From: Malania oleifera
Taxonomy: Eukaryota > Streptophyta > Magnoliopsida > Santalales > Ximeniaceae
Length of the DNA stretch: 64,000 bases
Direction: 5' to 3'
Assembly (NCBI RefSeq): GCF_029873635.1
Contig: NC_080423.1
Location: 92,919,691-92,983,690, forward strand
Made by a program: the position numbers and the translations under genes
Part shown: piece by piece, positions 12,046 through 59,787 of the stretch
Layout of the letters: each line of letters begins with the position of its first letter
Position numbering within the stretch: position 1 is the stretch's first letter
Notes under the pieces: model-generated
Told to the model about the DNA's origin: nothing
Seen by the model: the letters and a program-made list of their open reading frames with translations, nothing else
Databases searched by the model: none

Positions 12046-12621
12046 AATTTAGTGCAAAAAGTTACCAAAATCTTGAACTTGAATTTAGGATATTGTGGTT
12101 GCTTTATAAGTTTGTCCACAAGCAATACCATTTCATTAGCTTCATTACCAATTCATAACTCATGAAATACTAAGGGTGTGCAAATCAAGTTGTAGTTGTA
12201 CTGGTGGTATTATTCAATTCTCCTCTAGTGTAATCTCCCAGAACTCTAAATGTAACCACGGTGTTCCTCCGCTATAAGTGAGGAAAAGTAATAAAATAAG
12301 TAGTCTGTTTTCTTTAAGGGATGATAAATCGTATGGATAGTAAATTTCGAAGAAGAAATTTTTATAAGGAGGGGAGAATGTAGAGACCCGAAGAATTATG
12401 GTATTTAAATAATAAAAGAAAGAGGAAAAAGAAAAATTATAAAAGGGGGTCACAACAAGTCCTCGTCGATGAACGTGAAGCGTTCATCGACGAAGTGGCT
12501 TATTGGGATCATCGAGGGGGACGCGTGTCTTGTCAACGAAAAGATATCGAGAGACTATTTTTTATAGTAACCCAAAGAAATTATGGTATTTAAATAAGGG
12601 GGAAAAAAGAAATAAACAGGG

Positions 12622-12812
12622 TCTCGTAGATGAACACAGGGGATTCGTCGACGAAAGCATATGAGGGATTCGTCGATGGGAATATGTCTCATCGACGAGA
12701 AGATACCGAGAGGATGTTTTGGACGATTCTGAATTTCGTCGACGATGTGAGAGTTCGTCGACGAATTACCTTCTTGACCTCATCGACGAGGTGACGTGGC
12801 TCATCGATGAAG
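12622..12812 (+). promoter_or_regulatory. U3 array of TCGTCGACGA palindromes upstream of TATA
   Basis: Seven to eight copies or near-copies of TTCGTCGACGAA/CTCATCGACGAG occur in under 200 bp, directly followed by a TATA-like TGTATGAATAGG and a CT-rich tract. The core is a perfect palindrome with three CpG sites; many variant copies differ by CG to TG/CA change, as expected of methylated DNA. The same array occupies the same place in the LTRs at 14696-14785, 19300-19540, 31518-31702, 39150-39342 and 47298-47465. A promoter or enhancer role is inferred from position. Confidence 0.6.
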
Positions 12813-13439: not shown

Positions 13440-13640
13440 AATATGGATATGATTTGACGGCGTACGAACCGAGCTATGGATATGATTTTCCAGTGTACGG
13501 GCCGAACTATGGATATGATTTTTTGACATACGAACCAAGCTATGGATATGATTTGTCGGCGTACGAGCCAAGTTATGAATATGATATGACGGCGTATGGG
13601 CCGTGAATGGTAAAATGTGAAATGTTGGCGTACGGGCCGA
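13440..13640 (+). repeat. CGTACG minisatellite in LTR (33-bp units)
   Basis: About six units of 33 bp built on GGCGTACGGGCCGAGCTATG-like sequence. Because 33 is a multiple of three the array also reads as an 11-residue periodic peptide (YGYDLTAYEPS-like) in a 78-codon frame, but that is not kept in other LTR copies. Equivalent arrays lie at 15440-15660, 20320-20550, 30580-30730, 38090-38400 and 41260-41510. Confidence 0.8.
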
Positions 13641-13703: not shown

Positions 13704-16653
13704 GCAAAATGATGTGATGATATTAATCTGGCAATTATTAGTATGAAATATTCATGTATTATAGTTTGGTTATATGATATATGTTATCATAACCTGGTTG
13801 GCTTGGTTTAGGCTAGCACTTGCACGGTACCGATGGTATGTGTTCATGATCATCATGATATTGTATTAACGCTGTCGTACGGGGCAGTGTGAGGACGGAT
13901 AGTTGATGTGGTTTATAAGAAGTGTTGGCGCCCCTGGTGTACGGACCAGGTCTGGAAAACCCATCGGACTTACAGACTGTACTTTTGACTTTGTAGTGGT
14001 CGGCCAACCATTGTCAGGTCCCGCTTTCGGACCACACAACCCAATCATGTGGGGATAATACATGACAATAGCTAGCTAACCTACCAGGGTTGTTTTGTAT
14101 TATTATATATATATGATGAATTATGCTTATGGAAATACAGTATGTTCTGTCATGCTATGATTATATATGTTTTTTCAGATATGATACAGATAGTTTTATT
14201 AAATATGTTTATGTATGGTTTTATGTATAACATAGAGAAACTCATGTTGCCACACACTAATATAAGTTTATTTTCCCTTACTGAGAGGCGTCTCACCCCG
14301 AATTCTATGAACATTTCAGGAGCCCCTGATAGGAGAGTGGATAAAGCTCCGCTAAGATAGATACAGTTAGTCTGCCCTTTCTGAAGGATAAGTGTTTTGA
14401 CAGGGTCAGATGGATTTTGGGCAACGACTCTAGGATTAGTTTTGATTGTTTTAGGATGTATATGATGAATATAGTAACTCTGGTATTATAATGAATGATA
14501 TTATGAAATGTATATAATTTTATGTTTCCTGTTGCTTAGGTTTCTATATTGTATCTCTATTGTATCCTTGGTACCCACGGGTTCAGGTTGATTATGATCT
14601 GCTGGGTTTATTATATTGGTTTTGTTATTTTGGAAGAAAAAGAAAAAATATATAAGGTAAACTAAGCAGGTTGTTATATTTTTAGTTCTGAATTTTGTCG
14701 ATGAGAAATAGGTGTTCGTTGACGAACTTCCTTTGTGACCTCGTCGACGAAGTGACGTGACGAGCCACGTCACTTCGTCGACGAGTGCAGGTGTATAAAT
14801 AGCCTAAACTCAAATTTTTCATCAGAAATCATGCGAAGAACACACACACTCTCTCTCTCTCTCTCTCATGTTCGTCCCTTCCCCCTTCTTTCTAAGATTA
14901 TGGGTTGGATTCTTACCGGTTGGACGATCCAAGGCCACCATGACACTCTTGGGAAAGTTCTTTTCAAGTTTGCTAGAGTAGATCGTTGGTGGGGATAACT
15001 TGAATTTCATCCCAAATTTAAGGTAAGGCTTCTTATTCAATATTTGGTTTTCCTGCAGTTGTAAGAAATGTAGTACTCGAAGAAATACTGAAGTTTTTTT
15101 CAGGGAGATGTTGTTTACAGGATGTTGAACGGGGAACCCTGCAAGTGCAGGACTGATTATTTTAGGGGCTTTCCAAAAATCAGGTAAGGGGATAAATTAA
15201 GTCAGGATTTTACAAAAAGGTATTTACTATTTTACAGCATTTAATTTTAGATAAATATGTATGTTGTAGAATTATGTTGGAAATAATGTTATTGATCAGA
15301 TATAGGATTAATACCTCTTTTTGTGTGGCATGAGTAGAATTTACCATGGAAAAATTATGATAATGGAATATGATGTTTACAAAATAAGTATGTTTTACTA
15401 TTTTCAAGAAAATGTCAAAGGATACAGGGATTCTTCAAGTCGAGGTTTGTATATGATATATTGGCGTACGAGCCAAGATTTTTATATGATATAACGGCAC
15501 ACGGGCCAAGGTTTTTATATGATATATAGGCGTATGGGTCGAGATTTTCATAATGATATATCGGCGTACAGGCCAAGGTTTTTATATGATATGCCGGCGT
15601 ACGGGTCGTGATTTATAAAATACAAAATACCGATATAAGGGTCGTAAATTTTATATGATATGTTATGTAAAGATGTATGAAAATTTTAACATGACAGATA
15701 TGATTATGTAATAGTCATGTATCAATATTTGAAAATATGTTATATGTTATCAGAACCTGGTTGGCTTGGTTTAGGCTTTCACGAAGCACGATATCGTAGC
15801 TATATGATTACGATCATGATTATGTTAGTGATACCGCTTGCCGTACGGGGCAGTGGAAGATTGGTAGTCGATGTGGTTTATTGCAGCGCAGGCGTCCTTC
15901 TAGTGTCCAGACCAGGAGGGGCAGACCCATCGCACTTACAGACTTTTATTTGATTCGGCAATGGTCGGCCAGCCATTGTCGGGTCCCGCCTCCGGGTCAC
16001 ACAACCCAGTCATATGGGGGTAAGACATGACACCAGCTAGCTAATCATCAAAGATGTTTTCTATGTATTGTTATATGAGATGATTTATGTGTACAGAAAT
16101 TCAGTATGTTCTACTATGATATGATAATATATGTTTTCTTAGATATAATACAAACAATTTTATCAATTATGTTTATATACTATTATATATATAACACGAA
16201 ACTAGTCATGTGGTCACACACTGACATTAGTTTATTTCCCTTACTGAGAGGTGTCTCACCCCAAATTATATAAACATTTCAAGAGCCCCAGATAGGAAAG
16301 CGGATAAGGCTCCGCAGCGCTAGAGTTCGATAGTCCTACCCTACCTGAAGGGTAAGTCTTTTGTTAGGGTCAGACGGATTTTTGGGTGATGACCCTAGGA
16401 CTTGTTTTGGTTATTTTGGGTTATGTATGACGAGTGTAGTAAACTCTGGTACTGTGTTGGATAGTAATTTGATAGGTATATGATTTCACGTTTCCTGTTA
16501 CTTAGGTATTGGTATTATGTTTCAAGTTTACCCCTGGTACCCTTGGGTCTAGGTGGATTATGGTTTATCAGGTTAATTGTGATTTGATAGGACTTTTATA
16601 TGGATATTGTATTATGGAAAAAAAAATTATGATTATACAAGTAGGTCATTACA

Positions 16654-18203: not shown

Positions 18204-19593
18204 TAAATTATGTCAACTTTTTATTGAATTTGAACCGATTAAAATTGAGTATATGGATTCATGTAAGTTGTATAGGATTTTCTAAATGATTTAGGCATAT
18301 GAAGTTTATGGTTTTGATTATTATTAGTGTTTGGGGGAAAAAACCAAAGTGAATAGGGTTGATCATCTTATTTTCATATAAAACCGGTATTTAAAGTTAA
18401 ATTAATTATGAAGATGGTCAAACCTAGTTTTTCAACGGAAACATATTTTTCCCAAGTAGTTTAGTATATTATGATTTATCAGTCAAAAATCATGCGGCAT
18501 GAGATTTATCTATACTTTTCAGCACAATTGAATTTGAGTATTTTATGGTAATATACAATGAAAATGTGATTTGTATTAATTGATGGAAATACTAGAAATG
18601 TGGTGAAAATTATGGAATGACGGATGAATCCTGGGTTTGATATGACGGTTGTATACCGAGGTTTCATATGATGGTTGTATGCCAAGGTTTGATATGATAG
18701 TTGTATGCCGGGTTTTGATGTGACGTCTATATGCCAGGTTTTGATACGACAGGTTTTATACTGATTTACAAAATGAGTTATATAATAGTTTTTATTACTT
18801 AAATTGCATTATATGGTTTAAGAACCCTGAGGACCAGATATGATAAGAGCACGATACCGTAGCCAGTATTAGAGATAGTGCAACCACACTATTCTGGACA
18901 GAAGTGTTGGTAATGAAAATTAGATTTTGCCACAGAAGGGTTGTGTACCCCCTGGAGTCTAGACCAGGCTACGTAGGCAAATCGGATTTGCAGACATAAG
19001 GTTTGACTTAGCCTAGTGGTAGGCCAGCCAAGCTAGGTTCAGTCTTCGGACCACACAACCAGATCATGGGGGTTACATGATGATGTTGTATGTTCAAAAG
19101 GGGCTTTCTTCTACACATATATGTGAATTTACGTAAATGATATTATTTATTGAGTTGATTATATTATGAAGAAAATGTGTATTTCTAACTACATAGGTGT
19201 GAGTTATATTATACATGTAACGACCCAAATTTAAAAGGAAATTTAAATAATAAGGAAAGGGAAATAGAAACCAGAAATAGAAGGAAGCCGTAGACTTCAT
19301 CAACGAACGCTGCATTTCATGAGAGAAAAACAAAAAGGGGGAGTTTCTAGGCTTCGTCGACGAATCCCCTGTATTTGTCAACGAAGGCTATAGAAAATTC
19401 GTCGACGAACACAGGGGCTCATCGACGAGAAAATACCGAGAGGGGGGTCTGAGGCAGCCTGAATTTCATCGACGAATACAGGAACTCGTCGACGAAATTT
19501 GTGAAGGACTCATCGACGAAGGTCAGGCTCGTCGACGAAATTCTGTTTTATAAGAGTGAAAAATCTTGGAGAAATATCATATTTTTAAGAAAA

Positions 19594-27140: not shown

Positions 27141-27488
27141 TGTTAAGAATTGGGACACCAAAAATTTACGTGGTTCGATCAATATCGACCTACATCCACG
27201 GAGCACACCACAATTCGCTTAAAACCGTCGGAAAGAAATACAATTCTCTCAGTTTCTCGCTTCCTCACACTCTCTTCTTCCTCTCTTTTCTTCTCTGTGT
27301 TTCTCTGTGCATTTCATCTCTCCACAGCTCCTCTATTTATAGGTAACTTGGAATTAATCACAATAAATTACAATAAATTTAATTTGAGGAATTACATTCA
27401 TCAAAATTAAATGGTCGTGGATAACATCTCTAGCTTGTAGCTCACGCGTCTCCAACTCAGCTCACTCATCTCCAGCTCCAGCACAACA
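27141..27488 (-). repeat. 3' LTR of the Copia element
   Basis: TGTTAAG...GCACAACA in plus-strand reading, 348 bp. It carries a TATA box on the minus strand (CCTATAAATAGAGG, near 27330-27345). It pairs with the LTR at 44191-44558. Confidence 0.92.
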
Positions 27489-27649
27489 ATCTAACACTTG
27501 GAGATGGAGACGCCTCCTTAACCAGTATCAGTATATGAATAAATGGTGTGCTCAAAATATGTCTTCAGGCATGACAACCAACTGAAGTTGAACACAACTT
27601 CTGCTTCTCTATAGTCACCACCTTAGTTAACATATCTGTCGAATTTCTG

Positions 27650-29594
27650 CTACCTTGGATTTTTTTCAAGTGTCAACACGTCATCCTCTATCAGAGATCT
27701 GATGAAGTGATAACACAATCCAATATGTTTAGTTTTAGAATGAAATGCGGAGTTCTTTCCCAGATGTATCGCACTCTGACTGTCATTATACAAAACATTC
27801 ATCTCCTGCTTTAATCCAAGCTCCGTTAACAAACCCTGAAGCCAACTCATCTCTTTATTGACTTCTGTCACTACTACATACTCAGTTTCGGTAGTGGATA
27901 GAACAACAATCTTCTATATCTGTGACATCCAACTAACAGCTGTTGTGCCAACAGTGAATATATACCCGATGGTGCTTCTACCATGATCAATTTCACCTGC
28001 AAAATCAGCATCTACAAACCTTTAGATTTTCAAATCGCTTTTGTCAAAACATAAGCACTTATCAATAATGTTATGTAGATAACTCAAAATCCACTTCACT
28101 GCTTCCCAATGTGTCTGGATTTGACATACACCTGCTGACTGCTTGGCCAATATCTGGTCTGGTACCAACCATAGCATACATGAGACTTCCAACAGCTGAG
28201 GCGTATGGTACCTTAGCCATGAAGTCTTTTTCTTCATCTGTCTGGGAAGACTGATCCTTAGAGAGACAGAAGTGACCTGCCAATGGTGTATTTATAGCTT
28301 TAGCGCTGCTCATGTTGAACATCTGTAAAACACGGCTGATGTACTCTGACTGAAATAACCACAACATTCCTTGTTGCTTATCTCTAGAGATCCGCATCCC
28401 AAAAATCTGCTTTGCAAGACCCAAGTCTTTCATATGAAATTCCTCTGACAATTGTTGCTTCAATTTTCTGATCTCTTCTAAATATGATCTTGCGACTAGC
28501 ATATCATCAACATATAACAATAGGATAATATTGCTAGTATGACACCTCTTGAAGTAGCAACAGTGGTCGGCATTGCATTTTTGAAAATTGTTCCTCTGCA
28601 TACAACTGTCAAATTTCTTGTACCACTGCCTAGGAGCTTGTTTGAGACCATACAAACTCTTTTTCAATTTGAATACAAGATTCTCTTTACCTTTAACTGA
28701 GAAACCTTCTGGTTGTTGCATATAAATCTCCTCATCAAGATCACTATGAAGAAATGCCATCTTCACGTCCACCTGCTCAAGATGTAAACCCTCTGAGGCA
28801 ACAAAACTCAAAACAGATCTGATGGTTGTCATCTTCACAACCGGTGCAAAAATATTGGTGTATTCAATTCCTTCCTTCTGTTCGAAACCTTTGACTACTA
28901 ATCAGGTTTTATACCTCTTGGATCCATCATGCTCTTCTTTGATCCTGTACACCCATTTATTGTGAAGAGCCTTCTTACCATTGGGCAACTTAGCTAGTTC
29001 CTATGTTTTGTTGGAGTTAGGAGACTCCATCTCGTCTTTCGTTGTAAGCTCCCACTTGCTCAAATCTCTTGCCTGACATGCTTCAACATAGCATTCAGGT
29101 TCTCCTCCATCTGTAAGAAGTAAATGATTCACATACCTCCTGTTTGGTACATGCTGTCGAGATCTCTTAATCTCTAGTGTTGGAGTAGGAGGAGGTGGTG
29201 CAACAATTTGCTTTACAGGTTCCTTTGCTTGAGGATTCTCAGTATTCAACTTAGGATTCTCGGTGTTCCGTTGACGTGTCCTTACACCTTCTAAAACATC
29301 ATCCACATCTACAAAGGTTGTTTCAAACTCTATAGATCCTATTGTGTGTCTATCTTTGTACATCACCTTTTCATCAAAAATCACCTCTCTACTTCTAATC
29401 ACCTTTTTGTTTTCATCATCCCAAATGCGATACTCATATTCATCTCCACCATAACTGATGAAAGTGCATTTCCGGGATTTAGGATCCAACTTATTCCTGA
29501 CATTATCATTAATATGCACATATGCAATACAACCAAAAACATTCAAATGTGAAAATCTTACCTCTTTATTTGTAACGACCTGCTCCTTTTTCAC
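27650..29594 (-). pseudogene. Copia pol remnant: integrase end, reverse transcriptase, RNase H
   Basis: Recognisable minus-strand blocks are the C-terminal integrase part (VRFSHLNVFGCIAYVH...), reverse transcriptase (VDVKMAFLHSDLDEEIYM; KLKKSLYGLKQAPRQWY; LLLYVDDMLVA with the catalytic YVDD) and RNase H (YNDSQSAIHLGKN.AFHSKTKHI). These are Tork-type Copia motifs. Part of the fossil element at 27141-44558; its integrase is interrupted at 29570 by the Gypsy insertion. Confidence 0.88.
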
Positions 29595-30863
29595 ATATTT
29601 TTTTTTAATAAATAAATTATCATCACATCATACATTCCAGCTCAGCAAGTCACCATCCACCTGGACCCATAGGTACTAGGGATAAAACAAAAACATACAG
29701 CAGAAGCCTACGCAGCAAAAAATGTATAATCAAATACATACCATCATATCATACATCATAATGTACTAGAGTTACTACAAACACTGTACTTCCATATACA
29801 CTTCCCAAAAATGAAATTTAGGGATTATTTCCATAAAATCATACTATCCCTACCAAAAACTTACCCTTCAAAAAGGGTAGATAAACCTCACTATGTCAGC
29901 GGGGCCTTTTCTCGCTCTCCTATCTAAGACTCCTGAAAAGTTAATAAAATTTAGGGGTGAGACACCTCTCAGTAAGGGAAATAAACTAATACTAGTGTGT
30001 GGCAACATGAGTATTCCGTGTTCTACATATATCATACATATCATATCCAGTACTGTTTATTAAATCTGGGAAAACGTAAGTATATCAAAACATGGCAAAA
30101 CATACTGCATTTCATAAACATATCTCATCTCATATCATAATAATAACATAAAAACAATTCTGGTAAGTTAGCTGGCTGTTGTCATGTATTACCCCCACAT
30201 GACTGGGTTGTATGGCCCAAAGGAGGGACCTGCCAATGGTTAGCCGACCACTGCCAAGTCGATAGTCTAGTCTGTAGATCCGATAGGTCTACCTAGACTA
30301 GTCCGTACACCAGGGGCGATAACAGCACACTTCTTCAAAATAACCACATCGACCATCCAATCTCACACCACTCCATACAGCGGCGTTAACACAGATATCA
30401 TGATCACGAAGACCATGGACACATAGCAACGGTATCATGCAAGTGTTAGCCTAAACCAAGCCAACCAGATTCTGATATCATAGATATATACTGAAATTGT
30501 GATACATATATATCTCATATCATTTATTTTCACATCAATCATATCATTTCACATATATACGTGTATCATGAAAATCATCGGCCCGTATGCCGGTACTACA
30601 TATTTATCATAGCTTGGCCCGTACGCCAGTAAATCACATAGCACAGCCCGTACGCCGTCAAATCACATAGTTCAGCCCATACGCCGGCAAATCACATATA
30701 TATAAAAACATCTCGGCCCGTACGCAGGTTTTAAAACCCATATTATAATCACATTCCCAGAAAAATAGTATCTCACAACCATTACTACTCATGCCACACT
30801 AAACAATTTTTCCACGTATTCAACATATCATTATTTTCAACAGGGTTTTCTCAAATATAAATC

Positions 30864-30916
<53 letters not shown>

Positions 30917-31784
30917 CATGAAAATGAGTGCTATAAATATATACATACAATTTTCAAAAAGAACTAGCTTAGTTTATCCCCTTACCTGGTTCCTGAACAG
31001 CCCCTAAGAAAGTCTTCCCCGCCCCCGCAGGGTTCCTAACTCAACACCCTGAAAATGAAAACTCACAGAATTAAACTTTAGTATTTCAACGTGTATAACA
31101 TTTCTTATAACTACCATTAAGTCAAATTCGGCTTAAAAGCCTTATCATAACTCAGGGATGATTCCCAATGTTCCCAATCAACCCCCTGATAACAAAAACT
31201 CCTAATATTAAACTTTAATATTTTCATGCGTAGAATACTTTTCTCAACTGTCAAAACTCCAAATATGGCTTAAAAAGCCTTACCTCAACTTAGGGATGAT
31301 CTCCAACTTCGTTTCCCTAACAATCCGCTCCGGCAAACTTGTAGAGAACTTCACTAGGAGCATCGTGGTAGCCTCAAATCTTTGATCTAGTGATTAGTGA
31401 AGCCAAAATCGAAGAAAGAGAAAGAGAAAGAGAGAAAATCGAAGAGGAGAGAGAGGGAAAGAGTTAGCTTCTTAAAGAAGCTTAAAACCGGATTTCCATA
31501 TATATAAAACAGGGGATTTCGTTGACGAGCCTATTCTTCATCGACAAGTCCTTCACAAATTTCGTCGACAAGACCCTGTATTCGTCGATGAAATTCAGGC
31601 TGCCTCAGAACCCTTCTCAATATTTTCTCATTGACGAAGCCCTGTGTTCGTCAACGAATTCTCTTAAGCCTTCGTCGATGAAACCCTGTGTTCGTCAACG
31701 AAGCTTGGCAGCTTCCCTTCTTTCCTAACTTCCATTTCCCTTTTCTTTTATTGTTTAAATTTCATCTAAAATCCAGGTCGTTAC
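29571..31784 (-). repeat. 3' LTR of the Gypsy element (2,214 bp)
   Basis: It holds a short CGTACG minisatellite (30580-30730), a long TA run (about 30870-30912), donor-like and acceptor-like sites shared with the other LTRs, and the TCGTCGACGA palindrome array (31518-31702). The minisatellite is shorter than in its partner LTR. Confidence 0.93.
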
Positions 31785-32122
31785 ATCCTCCCCTCCTTAT
31801 AAAAATTTCGTCCTCGAAATTTACTGTTCACAAAACTCGTCATTCCCTTAATAAGGAAAAAGGTCTACTCATTTTATTACCGTTCCTCACTTATGGCGGA
31901 GGAATACCGTGGTTACAATCTGAGTCTTGGGAGATTACATATACAAAAGAAAATTTCTCCCAAAACTAAAGTACTACACTATTCAACCATTACATGTACC
32001 TACAACAGAAAACTACTTAACTATTTACATTTATCCACTCAGATCTCTTGAAATAAATGTGGATACCTCTCCTTCATCTACTCCTCGGACTCCTAAGAAG
32101 CCTCTTCTACTGCATGATTCTT

Positions 32123-35100
32123 TTACAAAACTTTTACCTGAGGGATCGTCCTGTTACGTAACTCTTGCACTTTCCTATTCAGAATCTGAATTGGTACCTC
32201 CTCATATCCCAATGAATCACTAAGCTCCAACTCATCATAACTGATGATATGAGAAGGATCCGGAACGTACTTCCTTAACATAGCAACATGAAATACGTCG
32301 TGGATCCTGGATAACATAGGTGGTAAAGCTAGTCTGTAGGCTACAGGTCCCACTTTATCTAAAATCTCAAATGGACCGATAAACCTAGGACTAAGTTTAC
32401 CCTTCTTCCCAAAGCGCAAAACCCCTTTCATCGGAGCTATCTTCAAAAATACGTGATCACCCACATCAAACTCTAAATTCCTACGGCGATAGTCAGCATA
32501 ACTCTTCTGTCGGCTCTGAGCTGCACTGATCTTGTCCCTGATAAGCCGAACCTTATCACGCACTTGCCATACAAGCTCAAGCCCCACTACTCGCCGCTCA
32601 CCCACTTCATCCCAAAATAGAGGAAAACGACATCTCCTACCGTATAGAGCCTCAAATGGTGTCATGCCAATGCTAGACTGATAACTATTATTATACGCAA
32701 ACTCTACCAGTGGCATGAACTGAGTCCAACTACCCCCAAAGTCTAGTACGCATGCACGGAGCATGTCCTCTAGTATCTGTATCGTCCTCTCAGTCTGCCC
32801 ATCTGACTGAGGATGGAATGTCGTACTAAACGATAACTAAGACTCCATAACCTCCTGCAAGCTCCTCCAAAATCGTGACATGAATCGCGGGTCTCGATTC
32901 GATACAATAGATACATGCACCCCATGAGAACAAACTATCTCCTGAATATAAATCTCTGCTAAACGGCTAAGGGAATAGCTAATCTTGATAGGAATAAAGT
33001 GGGCGGTCTTTGTCAACCAATCAACAATCACCCAAATGGCATTCTGGCCATGTAATGCTGTCGGCAATCCTGACACGAAGTCCATCGATATGTGATCTCA
33101 CTTCCACTCCGGGATAAATAATGGCTGCAACTGCCCTGCCGGCCTCTGGTGCTCAGCCTTTACTTGCTGGCACGTCAAACACTGGGCTACATACTCGGCG
33201 ATCTCCCTCTTCATACCACTCCACCAGTACGACTCTTACAGATCTTTGTATATCTTCGTACTTCCAGGATGAACAGTATACAAAGATCTGTGAGCCTCTT
33301 CTAGAATGGTCTTCCTGATCTCAGTATCGGCGGGAACACATAATCTAGTACGAAATCGCAAAGTTCCGTCATCTGTGATACTGAACTCCTCCCCTTGCCC
33401 ACTCTGTACTCTGTCTATCACCTATGCTAATTCTGGATCCTCCTTCTAAGCGGCTTTAATTCTTTCCTGTAGAGTAGACTGTACTACTAGGCTGGCAATA
33501 CATACTGGGAGATCACTCTCTACTAACTCTATGCCGAGTCTCTCTAGATCTATCATGATCGGATGCTAGATCCCCATTGCTGCCAACACTGATTCCCTAG
33601 ATTTCCTGCTCAATGCATCAGCTACCACGTTTGCTTTCCCTGGGTGATAGCTGATGGCACAGTCAAAATCTTTAATCAGCTCTAACCACCTTCTCTGCCT
33701 CATATTCAGTTCCTTCTGCGTGAAGAAATAATTTAAGCTCTTGTGGTCCGAGAAAATCTCACACTACTCGCCGTATAGGTAATGCCTCCAAATTTTTAAC
33801 GCATGTACCACTGCAGCTAATTCAAGATCATGGGTAGGGTAGTTCTTTTCATATTCCTTCAACTGTCAGGACGCATACGCCACTACCCTGCCATGCTGCA
33901 TCAATACACAGCCAAGTCCCTTCAAGGACGCATCATTGTAAATGACATACCTCTCACCCCCAGATGGGATGACTAATACTAGTGTTGTGACTAATCTCTG
34001 CTTCAACTCCTGAAAACTCTGCTCACAGCTGTCGTCCCACTCAAATCTAACATTCTTCCTTGTTAGTCGTGTCAAAGGTCCTAACAGCGCTGAGAATCCC
34101 TCAACGAAACAATGATAATAGCCTGCTAGCCCCAAGAAACTCCAAATCTCCTAGACATTCCTCGGTCTAGCCCAGTTCACCACTGCCTCAATCTTGCTAG
34201 GATCCACAGAAATACCATCTCCAGATATAACATGTCCCAAGAACACGACCTTCTCAAGCCAAAATTTACATTTACTGAACTTGGTGTACAATTTTTTCCC
34301 CCGAAGCGTCTGAAAAACCAACCTCAGGTGCGTCTCATGCTCCTCATAGCTCCTCGAGTAGACCAGTACATCATCAATAAACACAACAACAAACTGGTCT
34401 AGGTATTGGTGGAAGACTCTGTTTATCAAGTCTATAAATACCGCAGGAGCATTCGTCAAACCAAACGGCATAACAAGAAACTCGTAATACATGTACCTGG
34501 TCCTGAAGGCCGTCTTCGAGACATCTTCTGCTTTCACCTTTACCTGATGGTATCCAGATCTGAGGACAATCTTCGAATACACCCGTGTACCCTAGAGCTG
34601 GTCAAACAAATCATCAATACGGGGTAGAGGATACTTGTTCTTGATCGTCACTTTATTAATTTCTCTGTAGTCTATACAGATCCTCATAGTCCCGTCTTTC
34701 TTCTTCACAAATAAAACTGAAGCTCCCCACGGGGATACACTATGTCGTATGAAGCCTTTATCTAGCAAATCCTGCAACTGATTCTTCAACTCTGCTAACT
34801 CCACTGGCGCCGTCTGATAAGGTACTTTAGAGATCGGCACCATACTGGAAGGTAAATCAATGGAGAAATCTACCTCACGGTCGGGGTGGCAAGCCTGATA
34901 ACTCGTCTGGAAAAACATCTGTAAACTCCTTTACAACAGGCATACTAGCAAGTTTCAATTCACTTTCTGACATCTCCTTCACCACCGCCACAAACCTCTA
35001 ACAACCACTCAGCAGTAATCTCCTGGTCTAATAGCCGAAACTAACTGAGGCGAGGATCGCACTCGCGATCCTACGAACTTAAATTCTGCTTTCCCCGAGG

Positions 35101-36804
35101 GTCTGAATATCACCTCTCGTGCCCAACAATCTATGCTAGAAAAATTAGCTGCTAGCCAATCCATGCCAAATATAACATCAAACTCGTGCATGTCAAGCAC
35201 TATCAGATCAGCAGACAAACTCTTTCCCTGAATATCAACTGGACAATCTCGGAGCACCCTACTACACCTCACTACCGACCCAGTTGGTGTAGATACCAAT
35301 AACTCAACATCTAATGACTGTGTTTCAACCCCACATAACTTAGCACACCCCAAAGACACAAACGAGTGTGTAGCTCCTGAATCAAATAACGCAATAATTT
35401 TAAAAGAAAGCATAATCACCATACATGTCACCACGTCTCCTGAAGTCTTAGCCTCACCCGGCGTCAAAGTGAACACCCTCGCTGGAGTCGTATTCCTCTG
35501 CTGGCCCCCACGTGGTGCCTGATAACCTCCACGGTATGGTCTGGGAGCTGGAACTACATTTGGTGGGGTGGGACAGTCTCGCACCATGTGCCCCGGTCTA
35601 CCGCAACGATAGCACACCGGAACTGCATCTAATGGGGTAGGACAATCTCGCACTATATGCCCTGACCTACCGCAGCGATAGCACATTACACCACCAGCTC
35701 GACACTCCCCCCAGTGCCTTCTACCACAAGTCTGACAGACTGGAGGACCCTGCCCTATCTGCACCTCATGTCCTCCCATCTCTTGCCTCCACCCTCTACC
35801 ATGTTTACCTCTCCTCCACTGACCCGGCCTGTGACCCTACTGATAACTCATAGATGCAGATCTCTTCCTCTGGCCCTACTCATCCGCATCAAGACGCTCA
35901 CCAATCTCTGCCAAGGCCGCCCTATCGACCAACTCAGCAAAGTCCTAGATCCGTAGCACCACCACCTGCCTAAATATACTCCGCCTCAAGCCTCTCTCAA
36001 ACTGTCTCGCTTTCTTCACCTCATCAGGAACAATGTATGGGGCGAAACAAGAGAGCTCAATGAAACGTGCTGCATACTGTTATACGGATAGCTGTCCCTG
36101 CTTTAGACTCAGGAACTCTTCCACCTTAACTTCCTTGACAGTAGCTGGATCCGTAGCACCACCACCTGCCTAAATATACTCCGCCTCAAGCCTCTCTCAA
36201 ACTGTCTCGCTTTCTTCACCTCATCAGGAACAATGTATGGGGCGAAACAAGAGAGCTCAATGAAACGTGCTGCATACTGTTATACGGATAGCTGTCCCTG
36301 CTTTAGACTCAGGAACTCTTCCACCTTAACTTCCTTGACAGTAGCTGGAAAATACCTGTCAAAGAATAGATCTTTAAACCGGTCCCATGTCATGGCTATC
36401 GGAGTCACCCTCTACTGCTCCAATAGTCTTACTGCAGTCCACCACCTCTCGGCCTCTCCTGTCAATCTATAGGTGGCGAAGAGGACCCTCTGTTCCTCAA
36501 TACACTGTAGTACAGCCAAAATCTTCTCAATCTCTTGCATCCAGTTCTCAGCGGCTACAGGATCAACTTCGCCTGAGAATGCTGGAGGATTCATCTTCGT
36601 GAACTTCTCTATGGTGCACCCATGGCCTGCAGATGGACCACTCTGCTCCCTCGAACTCCTAGCGATCTCAGCCATAACCTGCTGAGCCATGCTATATAAT
36701 ACCGCATCTGAGTCGGTCCCAGCTGCACCTAATGGTCCTGCTCCCTCACTGCCACTCGCATGGGCACTACCTCCTCCTGAATCCATCTTGGAAACAACAA
36801 ACAC
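32123..36804 (-). pseudogene. Gypsy gag-pol remnant
   Basis: Recognisable blocks, right to left: gag (from about 36804); two CCHC knuckles (CYRCGRSGHIVRDC and CYRCGRPGHMVRDC, about 35560-35690); aspartic protease (ALFDSGATHSFVS, near 35370); reverse transcriptase ([20 protein letters not shown] near 34650-34720 and [12 protein letters not shown] with the catalytic DD near 34370); RNase H (about 33700-34130); integrase (WVIVDWLTKTAHFIP near 33000; FAYNNSYQSSIGMTPFEALYGRRCR near 32640-32700); then HDVFHVAMLRKYVPDPSH and a short NHAVEEA chromodomain-like tail near 32070. The order and the tail fit Tekay/Del chromoviruses. A fossil with multiple breaks. Confidence 0.9.
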
Positions 36805-37087
36805 ATCTTAAAAATCCTATCCTTATATTTTACCCACCTATCCTCACCACTTTTCTCAACATTTCCAACTCATTCTAATCCTCAGTCCTACATTCTCGGA
36901 ACACAACCCGACAATAGCTTACTATGGTTTTCCTAAAATCATCACCCCAGGAAAAACACAGAAACTACCACGGAAGTTCTGCCTCTAGACTGTAGAACAA
37001 AACCTTAAATCCTTTCCTAAACTCTGATATTGTTTCTGCTGCACTCTAAAGTATACAGAACCTAGCAACCTAGGCTCTGATACCAAC

Positions 37088-39420
37088 TGTAATGACCTGC
37101 TCTTTTTTCACATATATTTTTTTTTTAATAAATAAATTATCATCACATCATACATTTTAGCTCAGCAGGTCACCGTCCACTTGGACCGTTAGGTACCAGA
37201 GATAAAACAAAAACATACAGCAGAAGCCTACGCAGCAGAAAATGTATAATCAAATACATACCATCATATCATACATCACAATATACCAGAGTTACTACAA
37301 ACACTGTACTTCCATATACACTTCCCAAAAATGAAATCTAGGGACTATTTCCACAAAATCATACTATCCCTACCAAAAACTTACCCTTCAAAAAGGGTAG
37401 ATAAACCTCACTATGTCAGCGGGGCCTTTCCAGCTCTCCTATCTGGGACTCCTAAAAAGTTAATGAAATTTTGGGGTGAGACACCTCTCAGTAAGGGAAA
37501 TAAACTAATACTAGTGTGTGGCAACATGAGTATTCCGTGTTCTACATATATCATACATATCATATCCAGTACTGTTTATTAAATCTGGGAAAACGTAAGT
37601 ATATCAAAACATGGCAGAACATACTGCATTTCATAAACATATCTCATCTCATATCATAATAATAACATAAAAACAATTCTGGTAAGTTAGCTGGCTGTTG
37701 TCATGTATTACCCCCATATGACTGGGTTGTATGGCCCAAAGGAGGGACCTGCCAATGGTTAGCCGACCACTGCCAAGTCGATAGTCTAGTCTGTAGATCC
37801 GATAGGTCTACCTAGACTAGTCCGTACACCAGGGGCGATAACAGCACACTTCTTCAAAATAACCACATCGACCATCCAATCTCACACCACTCCATACAGC
37901 GGCGTTAACACAGATATCATGATCACGAAGACCATGGACACATAGCAACGGTATCATGCAAGTGTTAGCCTAAACCAAGCCAACCAGATTCTGATATCAT
38001 AGATATATACTGAAATTGTGATACATATATATCTCATATCATTTATTTTCACATCAATCATATCATTTCACATATATACGTGTATCATGAAAATCATCGG
38101 CCCGTATGCCGGTACTACATATTTTTCATAGCTTGGCCCGTACGCCAGTAAATCACATAGCACAGCCCGTACGCCGTCGAATCACATAGTTCAGCCCATA
38201 CGCCGGCAAATCACATAGCACGGCCCGTACGCCGACAAATCACATAGCACGGCTTGTACGCCGGCAAATCACATAGCACAGCCCATACGCTGGCAAATCA
38301 CATAGCACAGCTTGTACGCTAGCAAATCACATAGCTCGGCCCGTACGCCGGCAAATCACATATATATAAAAACATCTCAGCCCATACGCCGGTTTTTCCA
38401 TCATAAAACCCATATTATAATCACATTCCCAGAAAAACAGTATCTCACAATCATTACTACTCATGCCACACTAAACAAGTTTTCCACGTATTTAACATAT
38501 CATCATTTTCAACAGGGTTTTCTCAAATATAAATCGTATATATAAACATATATATTTTCATGAAAATGAGTTCTATAAATATATACATACAATTTTCAAA
38601 AAGAACTAACTTAGTTTATCCCCTTACCTGGTTCCTAAACAGCCCCTAAGAAAGTCTTCCCCGCCCCCGCAGGGTTCCTAACTCAACACCCTGAAAATGA
38701 AAACTCACAGAATTAAACTTTAGTATTTCAACGTGTATAACATTTCTTATAACTACCATTAAGTCAAATTCGGCTTAAAAACCTTATCACAACTCAGGGA
38801 TGATTCTCAATGTTCTTAATCAACCCCTTGATAATAAAAACTCCTAATATTAAAATTTAATATTTTCATGCGTAGAATACTTTTCTCAACTGTCAAAACT
38901 CCAAATATGGCTTAAAAAGTCTTACCTCAACTTAGGGATGATCTCCAACTTCATTTCCCTAACGATCCGCTCCAGCAAACTTGTAGAGAATTTCTCCAGG
39001 AGCATCGTGGTAGCCTCAAATCTTCGATCCAGCGACTAGCGAAGCCAAAATTGAAGAGAGAGAGAGAGAAAATCAAAGAGGAGAGAGAGGGAGAGAGTTA
39101 GCTTCTTAAAGAAGCTTAAAACCGGATTTCCATATATATAAAACAGGGGATTTCGTCGACGAGCCCGTTCTTCATCGACGAGTCCTTCACAAATTTTGTC
39201 GACGAGACCTTGTATTCGTCGATGAAATTCAGACTGCCTCAGAACCCCTCTCGGTATTTTCTCATCGACGAAACCCTGTGTTCGTTGATGAATTCTCTTA
39301 AGCCTTCGTCGACGAAACCATGTGTTCGTCGACGAAGCTTGGCTGCTTCCCTTCTTTCCCTAACTTCCATTTCCCTTTTCTTTTATTATTTAAATTTCAT
39401 CTAAAATTCGGGTCATTACA
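37088..39420 (-). repeat. 5' LTR of the Gypsy element (2,333 bp)
   Basis: Near-identical to 29571-31784 through its middle. It is longer mainly because its CGTACG minisatellite (38090-38400) has about eight 29-bp units against about three in the partner. The palindrome array lies at 39150-39342 next to a minus-strand TATATATA box near 39135. Confidence 0.93.
38090..38400. repeat. 29-bp CGTACG minisatellite, expanded in the 5' LTR
   Basis: Units read CACGGCCCGTACGCCGGCAA followed by ATCACATAG. Seven near-perfect units lie head to tail at about 38143-38345, with two more diverged ones on the flanks. There are no unique spacers, so it is a plain tandem repeat. Confidence 0.88.
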
Positions 39421-40258
39421 TTATTGCTCCATACTTCTTCTAGTAGATTATAGTCCAATGGTACTGATGGGCTCTTGTTATTCACATAAGCTGTTGTGTT
39501 GATTGCTTCTGCCCAAAACTTCTTTGGCAAGTCTGACTGCATACGCATGCTTCTGGTTTTTTTGTCAATGTTCTGTTCATCCGCTCAGCTATGTCATTGT
39601 GTTAAGGCGTACTTGGCACAATTCTTTCCATTCTAATACCATGCTCATAGAAAAATTTCTTGAACTCGGTGTCAATATACTCATCACCGTTATCTATTCT
39701 CAGCTTCTTGATTTTCAAACCAGTTTCATTTTCTACCATTACTTTCCAAATTTTAAAAGCATAAAAAACATTAGATTTATATTTTAGGAAGTAAACCCAT
39801 ACCTTCCGTGAATGATCATCGATAAATGTTACAAAGTAATGCTTCCCACCTGTGGATGAAATAGTTGTTAGTCCTCATACATCTAAATGGATTAGCTCAA
39901 GTTTCTCCTTCTTTGGGGTACTGATGTTTGTCTGCAAACTGTTCCTCTTCTATTTCTCAAATATGCAATCCTCACATGTGTCAATCTTCACTGACTGTAA
40001 ATCACTCAACTTACCCTTTGATTGCATCACCCTGAGTCCCTTCTCACTCAGGTGTCCGAGTCGTTGATGTCATATGTTGCTATCATCATTTCTTGTAGCA
40101 ATTGTAATAGACATGCATGCATTAGGAGTTACATAAAGATTACCATTTTTCTTACCTCGTGCAATTGTCAATGCACCCTTCGAAATCTTCCATTCATCAC
40201 CAATAAAAGTTGTGTTATATCCTCCATCTGCCACTTGACCGACTGAGATCAAATTCTT
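39421..40258 (-). pseudogene. Copia integrase core remnant between the two nested insertions
   Basis: This is host-Copia sequence left between the Gypsy element and the solo LTR. On the minus strand it carries GAG-pre-integrase and integrase sequence upstream of the part at 29594-29001; the reading runs from KNLISVGQVADGGYNTTFIGDEW near 40250 downward. The flanks keep the target duplications TTATT (39421-39425) and TTCTT (40254-40258). A fossil. Confidence 0.8.
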
Positions 40259-41441: not shown

Positions 41442-41479
<38 letters not shown>

Positions 41480-42190: not shown

Positions 42191-42228
<38 letters not shown>

Positions 42229-42514: not shown

Positions 42515-42519
42515 TTCTT

Positions 42520-45495: not shown

Positions 45496-47539
45496 TGTAA
45501 TGACCTACTTAATTTACTACATAATCAATCACATTAAATGTCTTAATACCAATAACTAATGATATAGCAAAGTCGACCCGAACTCATGGTTAACGGGGAC
45601 ACACCTGTCATACACAGCGAACACCTAAGTAACAGTAAATATAAATTTCATTCACCCAATCATAGAATACAATACCAGAGATACTTACATTACTACACTT
45701 CTGTAGATGTATATATACAATCCTCAAAAACACCAAAAAGATAAAACTAGAATCAAACACCCAAAAACTAGCTGATCCTACCTCAAAAACTCACCCTCCT
45801 AGTGGGGTAGAATAACTGCCTCAACGGCGCGAAGCTCGATCCGCCTGTCTTTCTGATTTCTCTAAAATGGTTTAATCTAGGGTGAAACACCTCTCGGTAA
45901 GGGAAATAAACTAAATACAGTTGTATGACAACATAACTATTTACATGCTATAATAAATATACAGTACATATTACATGCTTGAAGACACTGATAATATCAT
46001 AACTGAATAATCATACATTTCATAGTTATACTGAATCATACATTATCTCAATGTTCATAAAAAACATCTTCTATAAATAATAGTTCCGAAATTTACCTAA
46101 AATGAATAGCTAACTGATATCATGTATTACCCCCCATGACAGGTTGTGTAGCTCAAAGGCGAGACCTGACAATGGCTGGCTGACCACTGCCGAGTCAAAA
46201 TTGTCTGTAAGTATAATGGGTCTGCCACACCCTAGTCTGAACTGTCAGGTGGACATCTACAACTCCACACTGAAAGTCAGATTGACTATCCATCTCCCAC
46301 CTCCTCTACTGGCAAAGGTAGATAGTACAAGTCTGAACTTAACTTAACTGTATAGTTACGGTACCGTGCTCCTGAAAACTGATATGAACTATCATCCGGG
46401 TTCTCATGACATATAGTACATATTCATATACTGTTTTAACATAAATCGATTGATAGCATTTTCTAAATTCTATCATAACATAAATAATCACAGCCTTACG
46501 CCAGATACATACATAATTGCGGCTTTGCACCGACTATCAATCACAGCCTTGCACCGAAAATATCATAAATACTAAACGAGCATATGTATTGTTTATCATA
46601 TATTCTGAAACCATTATTTCCTATTTTATCATGTTATTCTTGAAAATAACTGTAAACATGTTTTTTCTGTAAAACTTATTTAACATAATACAATATACGT
46701 AAAATAATATTCATGCCGCACAAACAAAATAAAATTATGAATTATGTTCTGAAATTACATTTTATATATATTCCTATGCAATAGCAGTATTTTCTCAAAT
46801 ATATTTTTCCAAATATATATTCATACATAATACATTGTTTTTGAAAATTAATCTGCTATTAAATAATAATAATTTTCATGAAAAATTACTGCTTTAGTTT
46901 ACTCCCTTATCTCACTACTAGAAAGCCCCTAAAGCAACTAGTCATAAACCCGCAGGGTTCCCCGCTCAACACCCTGAAAACAACATTACTCCAAACAAAA
47001 CTTCAGTATTTCTTCAAATGCTACATTTTCTATAATTGTAAGAATGTCAAATACTCAATAAAAAGTCTTACCCTGAACTTGGAATGAAGTCCAAGTTAGC
47101 CCCACCAATGATTTACTCTAACAGACTTGAAGAGAACTTCCCCAGGAGTAGTATGGCGGCTTCGGATTGTCAAACTGACAAATAATTGGGCCAAATATCT
47201 AGAGAGAAGATAGAGGGGACAAACAAGAGAGTGAAAATCTAATTTGCTTGAAAAATTTGCACTAAAATCTGAGTTTGAGACTTTATACACCTGCCCTCGT
47301 CAATGAGGACATGAAAGGAGTTCGTTGACGAACGCTTATTTCTCATCGACGAAATTCAGTACTGAAAATAGCCCCTCGTTAACTTCTCGTCGACGAGATG
47401 TGTGTCCCCGTCGATGATCCCATCAAGCGTGTTCGTCGACAAACGTGCTACGTTCATCGACGAGACCCTGTGGAATTCCAAATTCCTTTTCCTTTCCTCC
47501 CCCTATTATTTAATTAATATAATTCACCAAGTCTCTACA
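45496..47539 (-). mobile_element. Solo LTR (Gypsy-like), 2.04 kb
   Basis: It starts TGTAATGACCTAC and ends AAGTCTCTACA, with the perfect target duplication AATAC (45491-45495 and 47540-47544). It is more diverged from the other LTRs but keeps the layout: minisatellite relic (46480-46560), palindrome array (47298-47465) and a minus-strand TATA box (GGTGTATAAAGTC) near 47285. Confidence 0.88.
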
Positions 47540-56297: not shown

Positions 56298-59200
56298 TGT
56301 TGTTTATGGTGTGGCTCTTATACTTCGTGGGGGCTTATAAGCAAAGGGAGAAAAACATATGTTGGTGCAGCAGCAATGACTCGTCGATGAGTGCCCTGTG
56401 CTCATCGACTAGTAGATACTGAGAGTTAGAAAATCTTATAGCAGAAGACTCGTCGATAAGATGATAGACTAGTCGACGAGTGGGCTTCTTGGACTCGTCG
56501 ATGAATCCCTTGTTCTTGTCGACGAGTGCGCCTGGGCTGCAAGAAGTTATTTGAATTGTGAATTTGAACATTGTGACAGTTGGAGATTCGAATGGAAACC
56601 TCCGAGGGCTTGTTATATATCCTCTTCTGGGCATATTTTGACATGTAAGAGAGTAAGAGAGGGGTAAGAGAATGAGGGAAGGTCATTGAGTGTGTATCTT
56701 TGATTTTCATAGTGAAATCTCTTAACGATTCCTCCTATGGATGCAGGCTTTGCCGAACCACGTAATTCCTGGTGTCGTTGCTCTTATCTTTACTCTCATT
56801 ATATTGCTATGGTTGTGGATATATTTTGTATTTCACCATTGAGATTGTTGCAAGTGCATGTTTAATCCTTTACAACAATATTGTTATTATTCCGCTGTGC
56901 ATTGTTGTAAGAAACCCTTATTTTCACAACAATTGGTATCAAAGTGTGTGTTGTATGACCTTTGAATTGAAGGATCTCTTAGTGCAACAAGGTTTGGTGA
57001 AAGGTTTATACAGAATTTCAACGGAACAGCATGGATGCAACGATTTGGAATGATTTGGGACCAATCATTTATCTTTGTTTAGCTAAGGACGTGTTGTAGC
57101 CCGTCATGGATGAGAATTCTCTGGCATTAGTTTGGTGAAAACGAGAAATTCAATTATGTCTAAGGGTTCGCCAAAATCTTCAAGTGTAGTGGGGGAAGAC
57201 TCAGAATGTAGTGATAGAGATATGTTGTGTGTTTCATCGGGTTCGAAATACCTCATGAGTAATTCTTGAATCTTAGATACCGGATGCTTTAATCCTAAAA
57301 GATGGTTTAACATCGACAGGTCAGCTTATACTGGTTGCATTTTGATGAAAAAATGATATTTCATGCAAAATGTTTGTTATTGGAAGTGTCAAAATCAAAA
57401 TGTATAATAATGGCGTTGTAAGAACCATATGTGATGTAAAGCATGAATCGAGTCTAAGGAAGAATGGTATTTCATTGGGAACTTTAGACAGTAATGGATA
57501 TTGTTACGAGTCTAAATGTGGAGAAATGAAAGTGTGTGAGGGTAACTTGGTAGTGATGAAAGGAGATAAAGTAGCAGGAAATATCTATGCATTGCAGGGT
57601 ATTATGGTTGTAGGTGAAGTTACAACTGTTGAATTTGAGTCAAGTATCCTATGGCATATGCGGTTAAAGCATATGGGTGACTACATGTATTCAGATGTTT
57701 GGCAACAAATGATGATATCATCAAAGGATAGACATATGTATTTCGTATGTTTGTCACGAAGGGTCTTGGTGTACTTCATGCAGTGACTGAGGTGGAAAAC
57801 CAGACCGGGAGAGAGATTCTCAAGTCAAACATTGGGGTTGAGTACGTTGGTTTCGTTCAAGAAGTTTGAGAGCAAAGCAGGTTATATGCAGGGCTTGTAA
57901 GGTACTTCTTGGTGAAGTTAGTGAGTATGACGCGTTTCTCGTGTGACTAATCGCCAAAGGTATCGTTAGATGAGAAAGTTGTAGGTAAATTATGGGCAAG
58001 TTTTGCGGTAGACTACTCAGTTGTGAGTGGATGTCTACTGGTACACTATTCTAGTGATGGAGGATCTAAGCTTGGTGTTATGTCTAGACAGTATACTTTT
58101 CTGAGGTATAAGAAAGGTGTGTGCAAACTGAGTGATTCTATGGATAACAAAGGGGTGATCGAGGACATGGCTTTTGGTGATAAAGTCATGGGGCAGTGTA
58201 CTCAAGTAAAGAAGGAGAAACAAATGTCAGAAAATTGCGACAACAACAATCACGTTATTCAAGTAGAGTTAGGGACTCAGAGCAGAAATGCGGGGAGTTC
58301 TATCTCGGGTCAACAGTATCACGGTATGAATGAGCATGTGATGTAGGTGGAGTAACAGACTCAGGGCAAAGATGACATAGTTCATATTGTAGGGAGTTTT
58401 AGCTCGGGAGACCAGCAGAATCACGATGGGCCCATGTGTACTATCAGACCACTACTCAGGTGTGTGAGTTGGTGAGGCTTCCAGTTTGGAAGAGGGTGAT
58501 AGGATGTCGTGGAGTGATGTATCGATTGCGTGTGAATAACATGTTATTTTTTGAAAATACTTTGACTAAGGCTTATTAGTTGGAAACTTTGTTGAAAGGT
58601 TTTGACATGAATGTGTTGGGTACAGCCAAGATGGATCTTGGTTTGCTGATTCGCATAGACAAAACTGCAGGGAGATTGGTATTATCTCAGGGTGGTTTTG
58701 TGGACAAGGCTACAGGAAGATTGGCGTTATCTGAAGGTGTCTTTATGGATGGAACCGCAGGGAGACTTTGTTTGACGTCTAAGGGGGGTTCTATGGAGAA
58801 TCAATATGGAATGTCTACCGCTCGGTACCTAAGGACGGGTTGTGATGTTCGGGATATGTCAAAGGTCTTCCATGATTGTGTAATGAAATGTTTCAACAAG
58901 CAATAGAGTGGACCGCCAGTTGTTAGTTTTGTATAAGACTATGCAGGGGGCTGTGGTGATATAAGACTTGCAACAGCTTTAGTGTTTCCTGTTGTGGGAA
59001 GGTCTTATTGGAAGCCTAAGGCGAAGTCTTCGAGTATTGCATCTACAACTATATCGGGGTTGATGGTAGAGGCTGAAGCTACCATCGCCAAGTTCAAGCG
59101 GCATTGCTTGGACTTGGTGTATGTCTCCAAGTGCTAGAAGGGAGATGGTCCCAACCGAGCATTCTAAGTTCAAGGTGGAGCAGTTAAATATGTTTTCCAG

Positions 59201-59787
59201 ATTCTCCTAAGGGGCGTATAATAGTCAAGGAAGAGATTTTTGTTTATGGTGTGGCTCTTATACTTCGTGGAAACTTATAAACAAAGGGAGAAAAACATAT
59301 GTTGGTGCAGCAACAATGACTCGTCGACGAGTGCCCTGTGCTTGTCAACGTGATGATAGACTAGTCAATGAGTGGGCTTCTTGAACTCGTCGACGAGTAT
59401 GCCTGGGCTGCAAGAAGTTATTTAAATTTTGAATTTGAACATTGTGACAATTGAGGATTCGGAGGGAAACCTCCGAGGGCTTATTATATATGCTCTTCTG
59501 GGCATATTTTGACAAGTGGGTGAGAGAAGGAGAGAAGATCATTGAGTGTGTATCTTTGATTTTCATTGTGAAATCTCTTATTGATTGTTCTCGTGGATGT
59601 AATTTTTACCGAACCACGTAATTCCTGGTGTCGTTGCTCTTATCTTTACTCTCTTTATATTGTTATGGTTGTGGATATATTTTTTATTTCACCGTTGAGA
59701 TTGTTGCAAGTTCATGTTTGATTCTTTACAACAATATTGTTATTATTCCACTGTGCATTGTTGGAAGAGACCCTTATTTTCACAACA
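56298..59787 (+). mobile_element. Small Ty1/Copia relic (Tork-like) with two LTRs
   Basis: LTRs at 56298-56931 and 59238-59787. A primer-binding site TTGGTATCAAAG (56933-56944) follows the 5' LTR. The internal 2.3 kb keeps protease-end and GAG-pre-integrase blocks (KIKMYNNGVVRTICDVKH, ILWHMRLKHMG, 57370-57690), a reverse-transcriptase block (about 58590-58660) and a trace of the Tork-type end (KFKRHCLDLVYV, near 59095). It is far shorter than a full Copia, so it is a broken internal-deletion derivative with several lesions. The 5' LTR holds TCGTCGACGA-like palindromes (56378-56530) before a TATA box (GTTATATATCC, 56612-56622), like the Gypsy LTRs. Inserted in the LINE; no clear target duplication. 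Confidence 0.8.
58664..58798 (+). repeat. Three 45-bp tandem units inside the Copia relic
   Basis: Three consecutive in-frame units encode TAGRLVLSQGGFVDK, ATGRLALSEGVFMDG and TAGRLCLTSKGGSME. They derive from the GRLCLSQ.GY block of Copia reverse transcriptase that normally occurs once. Confidence 0.72.

Follow-up and report, generated by a model that had tools for sequence, protein, structure and literature searches.

A strictly spaced palindrome array common to the U3 regions of Gypsy and Copia LTR retrotransposons in Malania oleifera

Elements and arrays in the window

The whole stretch of DNA analysed (hereafter the window) covers 64 kb (contig NC_080423.1, positions 92919691-92983690) of the 1.494-Gb genome of Malania oleifera, assembled in 510 contigs. 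The element at 29571-39420 belongs to the Ty3/Gypsy superfamily, with Pfam matches to RVP_2 (3e-40), RVT_1 (5.3e-26), RT_RNaseH_2 (1.5e-12) and SH3_Tf2-1 (1.8e-28); from its 2.0-2.3 kb LTRs and its integrase it may be a Tekay/Del-type chromovirus. The element at 56298-59787 is assigned to the Ty1/Copia superfamily by its Copia-type pol domain: Pol_BBD was matched at 6.8e-07, above the cut-off, and gag_pre-integrs at 0.0025, below it, and gag and RT (RVT_2) models gave no match to the four pieces of this element that were tested. The initial annotation had labelled it Tork-like. Pol_BBD, which we take to be a Copia marker, also matched the other Copia element of the window. The LTR starts differ, being TGTA(A/G)NGAC in Gypsy and TGTTG in Copia. 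Palindromes are numbered P1 to P8 as in the full Gypsy array, and spacings are given from start to start in bp. The features were located as follows.

12463..12539, plus strand: partial array (P1, P2 and a P4-like site, then GATATCGAGAG) in the 5' LTR stretch preceding G1
12624..12810, plus strand: G1, full Gypsy array of eight palindromes, spacings 21, 25, 19, 47, 19, 25, 21; TATA-like box 9 bp downstream
12701..12712, plus strand: core box AGATACCGAGAG, after P4 of Gypsy G1
14695..14784, plus strand: G2, Gypsy array with P5-P8 only, spacings 21, 25, 34; TATAAATA 9 bp downstream
19354..19538, plus strand: G3, full Gypsy array, spacings 21, 24, 20, 47, 20, 24, 19; LTR start at 19216
29571..39420, minus strand: Gypsy element, LTRs 29571-31785 and 37088-39420, with RVP_2, RVT_1, RT_RNaseH_2 and SH3_Tf2-1 pieces
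31519..31701, minus strand: G4, full Gypsy array, spacings 20, 24, 20, 46, 20, 24, 19; in the 3' LTR of element 29571-39420
39153..39335, minus strand: G5, full Gypsy array, spacings 20, 24, 20, 46, 20, 24, 19; in the 5' LTR of element 29571-39420
47297..47463, minus strand: G7, Gypsy array with P1-P7, spacings 21, 25, 21, 44, 21, 25; in LTR 45496-47539
56298..59787, plus strand: Copia element, LTRs 56298-56931 and about 59240-59787, PBS-like TTGGTATCA, Pol_BBD piece
56381..56525, plus strand: C1, Copia array with P3-P8, spacings 21, 48, 20, 25, 21; TATA-like site 87 bp downstream
56414..56425, plus strand: core box AGATACTGAGAG, after P4 of Copia array C1
59321..59396, plus strand: C2, shortened Copia array in the second LTR, in which two deletions fuse palindrome to palindrome (by eye)

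The initial annotation had recorded clusters in at least five Gypsy-type LTRs. These exist, and its list omitted the array at 31519-31701 and the partial array at 12463-12539. All five window Gypsy LTRs in which the U3 start is present carry the array (G1, G3, G4, G5 and G7); those cut short at the U3 start hold half of it (G2) or none (40259-42237). Different insertions are about 67 to 86% alike in their LTRs, and they therefore represent one interrelated group and not several independent families.

The Gypsy LTRs also contain minisatellites (13442-13596, 15443-15614, 20357-20492, 38127-38362 and 41294-41411) with units of 29-34 bp or multiples thereof, the copy number varying among LTRs. A 200-bp tandem duplication with a 100% match lies inside the Gypsy element at 35948-36349. 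This element and the Gypsy LTR at 40259-42237 interrupt a probable Copia element at 27148-44559, which has 342-bp flanking repeats (90% alike) and no array.

Palindrome frequency and register

The palindrome TCGTCGACGA occurs 15 times exactly in the window, against an average of 0.00 in dinucleotide shuffles, and 42 times with at most one mismatch, against 0.26. Eight clusters hold 57 of the 59 sites found at up to two mismatches, and 20 simulated sequences never held more than two such sites per 200 bp. By these counts the clusters first noted in Gypsy and Copia LTRs are real, and stronger than had been reported. The description as clusters was right as to grouping, but the grouping is not loose: the sites follow a fixed spacing register common to both superfamilies. 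Gypsy arrays comprise up to eight palindromes at start spacings of about 21, 25, 20, 47, 20, 25 and 20 bp, and Copia C1 shares this register over the last six sites. Within the pairs P1-P2, P3-P4, P5-P6 and P7-P8 the distance is 19-21 bp, the last pair of G2 excepted.

The position just upstream of the TATA box that had been given for all of these arrays holds for Gypsy, where a gap of 9-12 bp separates the last palindrome from a TATA-like box in six of six window arrays, but not for the two Copia arrays, which lie 87 bp away; the array position is therefore similar in the two superfamilies, not identical.

Abundance across the genome

Genome-wide, TTCGTCGACGAA has 37,861 exact copies against 67 of the reversed word, and CTCGTCGACGAG has 29,470 against 36; the box AGATACCGAGAG has 3,899 and 3,924 copies on the two strands against 25 and 37, none of these reversed controls being CpG-matched. 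Within the first 2.5 Mb of contig 1, another exact 12-mer lies at most 250 bp away from 116 of the 160 listed, and the register, whose values take up 27% of the range, accounts for 82 of the 101 distances of up to 250 bp. Seven of the nine AGATACCGAGAG copies listed there have an exact 12-mer no more than 250 bp away, which is true of 2.0% of the stretch.

Fourteen loci chosen by two 12-mers (L082-L089 and L140-L145), all within the initial 0.6 Mb of a single contig and not a family survey, each contained an array; three arrays were doubled, giving 11 distinct ones. A blast match to the window Gypsy LTRs or interior was obtained for 12 of these loci and 9 of the 11 arrays, being weak or interior-only in L088, L089 and L141. 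L082 and L087 gave no blast match to window Gypsy sequence, and the sequence beside their arrays resembles Gypsy LTR starts (by eye). At L082:1097-1407 an LTR-like stretch of another kind adjoins the TCGTCGACGA array. It repeats GGTCGACC-type sites (seven with at most one mismatch), which stand upstream of a minus-strand TATA-like site (by eye), and it may be a hybrid LTR or an array of a related type that has a different flank.

Among 20 arbitrary 3-kb windows (60 kb), two contained arrays (L120, with Copia flanks, and L134, Gypsy), and the sites stood almost wholly in arrays, five of five that were exact and 11 of 12 that had at most one mismatch. In this sample the word is thus not common outside arrays; had it been common outside LTRs, the interpretation of the initial annotation would have been refuted. 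There is next to no probability that it is merely frequent in the genome by chance or as a simple repeat. A two-site pattern does occur in 81 stretches of viral contigs; none of these loci has more than five sites (at most one mismatch) per 300 bp, and six of their contexts look bacterial or phage by eye. Against this explanation, shuffles of the window gave zero, the 60 kb sampled held no isolated exact site, and the three-site spaced pattern, with five matches in the window, had none in the prokaryote-genome and viral-contig collections. A chance or low-complexity origin was rejected on the shuffles and on the lack of the spaced pattern in these collections. Neither the Gypsy integrase piece nor the Copia Pol_BBD piece had a relative among the viral contigs searched.

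Distribution of the array among Copia elements

The Copia family was sampled by a DNA search with the part of the Copia LTR downstream of the array, which gave 42 matches, with 40 of 2,791 candidates scored. The 30 best matches were read and yielded 31 LTR entries, five further partial matches being left out; two places were doubled (L119 = L092, L100 = L107), leaving 29 distinct LTRs, two of them from the window itself. Among these best matches at least four of the six sites stand in register in 25 of 29 LTRs (up to 3 mismatches per site, within 3 bp), and all six do so in 16 of 29 (up to 3 mismatches per site).

A search at the protein level, with Copia Pol_BBD as query, reached further, 150 relatives being scored of 12,756 first-look candidates. 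Over the 3.4 kb examined at each of the best 20, two or more clustered sites were present in 17 relatives, in some cases off register, and no site cluster was found in L147, L154 and L157. In 13 of 20 relatives of the window Copia element (L146-L165) only 406-417 bp separate the PBS-like site from Pol_BBD, so that gag looks largely missing, and the family may be non-autonomous yet abundant.

Seven divergent relatives (66-68% identity) were also read, of which five were informative; the LTR was not recognised in L168, and only its end was present in L170. The array is missing in three of the five (L166, L169 and L172), which have the LTR end, the PBS-like site and 166-222 bp (72-76% alike) in common with the window Copia LTR, and it is present together with the box described below in L167 and L171. 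At the place of the array, the U3 regions lacking it contain a near-palindrome with a CGTCGAC-like core, namely AAACCGTCGACAGTTT in L166 (about position 1005, element orientation) and L172 (about 322) and AAATCGTTGACGGTTT in L169 (about 350), and a home-grown origin of the Copia array is therefore possible.

The array is thus variable within the Copia group and present in all five window Gypsy LTRs that retain the U3 start, which favours acquisition by Copia. A tree built from the linkers alone placed Copia beside the G1-type Gypsy array with 34% support and did not settle the direction; with support this low, the direction from Gypsy to Copia that we infer rests on the three array-less Copia relatives.

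A second box and linker likeness

A 25-base match with three mismatches between a Gypsy and a Copia copy, reported in the initial annotation, was reproduced at 12688-12712 and 56401-56425, a few bases from the coordinates given there. Sharing between the superfamilies extends beyond the palindrome. A GATACYGAGAG box starts 3 bp after the fourth palindrome in both, the linker after P4 opening with GAAGATACCGAGAG in G1, GTAGATACTGAGAG in the Copia copy, GAAAATACCGAGAG in G3 and G5, GAAAATATTGAGAA in G4 and GAAGTTAACGAGGG in G7. When at least 9 of 11 positions had to agree and the start had to lie within 5 bp after P4, the box was found in 9 of 11 Gypsy arrays and, among the distinct Copia copies to which a P4-P5 pair could be assigned, in 23 of 25, compared with 0.26% of shuffled linkers; G2, L087, L088 and L089 were excluded from the Gypsy count, the automatic register being wrong or P4 missing. 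Over the 16 bp after P4, the match between Gypsy and Copia was reached by 0 of 20,000 column permutations, with duplicates in or out, and the position-locked first 14 bases after P4 of the window Copia copy gave 2 of 20,000.

Likeness elsewhere is weaker. The other nine of the ten linker windows compared between Gypsy and Copia gave no significant result (p 0.09-0.63). Copia does match, in the P6-P7 linker, the four Gypsy arrays whose P6-P7 spacing is 25 bp (G1, G7, L085 and L134; p = 0.0058), and three other linkers compared with the same four arrays gave p 0.39-0.75. For C1, the one Copia copy of the window used here, the linker match to G1 was better than in 1,999 of 2,000 shuffles. The five other Gypsy arrays are matched less well, with 63, 165, 362, 365 and 502 of 2,000 shuffles as good; against all Gypsy arrays together, 157 of 5,000 were as good when the best match in each slot was taken and 38 of 5,000 when the mean was. 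At family level, more than the 10-bp core is therefore common to the two superfamilies, namely the register, the box and, more weakly, the P6-P7 linker.

The main rival to a transfer is convergence, in which both superfamilies built their arrays independently under a single host factor that reads CGTCGACG pairs at fixed spacing beside a GATACCGAGAG site. We regard this as unlikely. An array could be amplified from a near-palindrome such as AAACCGTCGACAGTTT in the U3 of L166 and L172 or AAATCGTTGACGGTTT in L169, the conservation of spacing could itself be selected, and most linkers are without likeness between Gypsy and Copia. Convergence would, however, need to have produced twice a non-palindromic 11-bp box at an identical offset (0 of 20,000 permutations), the unequal spacings 21/47/20/25/21 and the likeness of the P6-P7 linker.

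Sequence decay, methylation and folding

Most changes in the palindromes are CpG transitions, 47 of 52 in the 54 palindromes of the window and 175 of 219 in the 161 sites from Copia, both sets having been picked by mismatch limits that favour few changes. When 30 Copia array stretches were aligned without a mismatch limit (one place entering twice), differences between copies amounted to 0.070 at non-CpG palindrome positions, 0.209 in linkers, 0.359 at CpG positions and 0.324 in the flanks. The excess of CpG transitions suggests that the copies are methylated, and the low variation at the remaining palindrome positions suggests that the palindromes are selected in source elements.

Methylation could also be what the array is for. 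In Arabidopsis, REM factors and GDE1 recruit Pol IV to sequence motifs, 86 motif-1 sites being given for the genome (PMC12270911); by analogy, a host protein on the array might recruit the methylation machinery and so mark elements for methylation, the array being kept since low, tissue-restricted expression would be tolerated. This we hold to be improbable. Sequence-directed recruitment is known, with arrayed short motifs at strict spacing that decide the chromatin fate of a locus (PMC12270911), and the changes in the palindromes are mostly the CpG transitions that methylated sites would show. Any silenced transposon shows CpG decay, however, and a mobile element would be expected to lose a purely silencing module, not to gain one. 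The Arabidopsis motifs of PMC12270911 also differ, being other sequences, repeated directly with spacers of one base. When the eight window array stretches were scanned for TTTTGCTTAT and AAGCGGAT with one mismatch allowed, they gave two and three single matches and no repeats.

Pairing of the palindromes in the transcript to form U3 hairpins was considered as well. Five arrays, taken as RNA, folded better than shuffles (z -3.4 to -5.1), but like palindromes always fold well, and the predicted partners varied among these five arrays. Compensatory change between neighbouring palindromes did not exceed chance in seven comparisons of 5 to 7 arrays each, the best being equalled by 369 of 5,000 permutations. 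An RNA-level function is accordingly very improbable, and a hairpin as the main function was rejected on the inconsistent partners and the absent compensation.

A promoter module probably acquired by Copia

Exchange or capture of a U3 module between superfamilies, as first proposed, is the reading best supported, by the register, the box after P4 and the P6-P7 linker. In the form we consider reasonably probable from these sequence comparisons, recombination gave a Copia lineage a promoter module of Gypsy origin, on which a dimeric DNA-binding protein of the host would probably dock. The array would be a U3 regulatory module of a long-LTR Gypsy group, adjoining the TATA box and consisting of four pairs of 10-bp palindromes around the GATACYGAGAG box. 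Palindromic sites suggest a dimeric protein, for which they would be the putative binding sites; the 19-21 bp within a pair correspond to about two helical turns, which may place two dimers on one face of the helix. At the box a second protein would bind, or the contact would be asymmetric. The short distance to the TATA box, which the Copia array does not have, points to a promoter role, and conservation of the array through multiplication suggests use in expression, possibly as an activating element.

The Copia lineage would have gained the six-palindrome part including the box, replacing its own U3 segment, either by template switching between co-packaged RNAs or by gene conversion between genomic copies, and would have multiplied thereafter. 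Recombination is plausible because deletions already fuse palindromes in C2 and L103 (by eye) and because elements nest in each other within the window. Counting against the transfer are the distance of the Copia array from its TATA-like site, 87 bp and not 9-12 bp, and the lack of significant linker likeness between Copia and Gypsy outside the box and one linker.

A broader proposition seems conceivable but somewhat doubtful: that Gypsy and Copia elements, which have no recent common ancestor, trade whole promoter modules, and that tens of thousands of sites form a single regulon in which one host protein reads a rigid eight-site array. If true, regulatory sequence moves between lineages that have no replication proteins in common, and a large share of the mobile DNA of the genome may stand under one host factor. 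With a site so exact and so abundant, the factor should be easy to isolate, and a contest between host and transposon over promoter control would become testable.

Comparison with known systems

A close parallel is the wheat complex of RLG_Wilma, RLG_WHAM and RLG_Sabrina, nearly non-homologous families that have in common a short GC-rich LTR motif followed by a possible TATA box, which was read as joint promoter control (PMC9744471). As there, a motif upstream of the TATA box is common to otherwise unlike families, here with a register and a box. According to PMC9744471, the three wheat families are all Gypsy-named (RLG) and have their first LTR bases and PBS in common; the Gypsy and Copia elements here differ in their LTR starts. 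The wheat motif is short, and here an array of eight or six palindromes plus a box is found. Set beside that shared-promoter complex (PMC9744471), the TATA distances in the present elements are 9-12 bp in Gypsy and 87 bp in Copia.

Modular evolution of U3 is likewise known from the Tnt1 superfamily of Solanaceae, in which U3 forms an evolutionary module of its own, separate from the coding region, and subfamilies differ mainly in U3 (PMC1838419). That case, unlike the present one, concerns a single Copia group; in the main text of PMC1838419 the string "palindrom-" is absent, and the passages considered here describe no exchange with Gypsy. Plant LTR retrotransposons also show weak 5-6 bp palindromes at their insertion target sites (PMC6911290). 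Palindromes thus accompany LTR elements in both cases, but those described here lie inside the LTR as the element's own part, and an insertion-target role was set aside for that reason.

Among the titles and abstract openings listed for TCGTCGACGA, GATACCGAGAG and CGTCGACG there was no paper on plant LTRs and no plant factor with this site, nor did any paper announce such an array there, in a literature that omits most subscription journals. Modular U3 within one retrotransposon family and a promoter motif common to wheat Gypsy families were known before; a long, strictly spaced module common to two superfamilies would go beyond both.

Other features of the window

A tandem duplication of 160 bp with a 100% match lies at 26073-26395. 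On the minus strand at 50834-51118, a short open frame matches a heavy-metal-associated domain just under the cut-off and is possibly an exon of a host gene.
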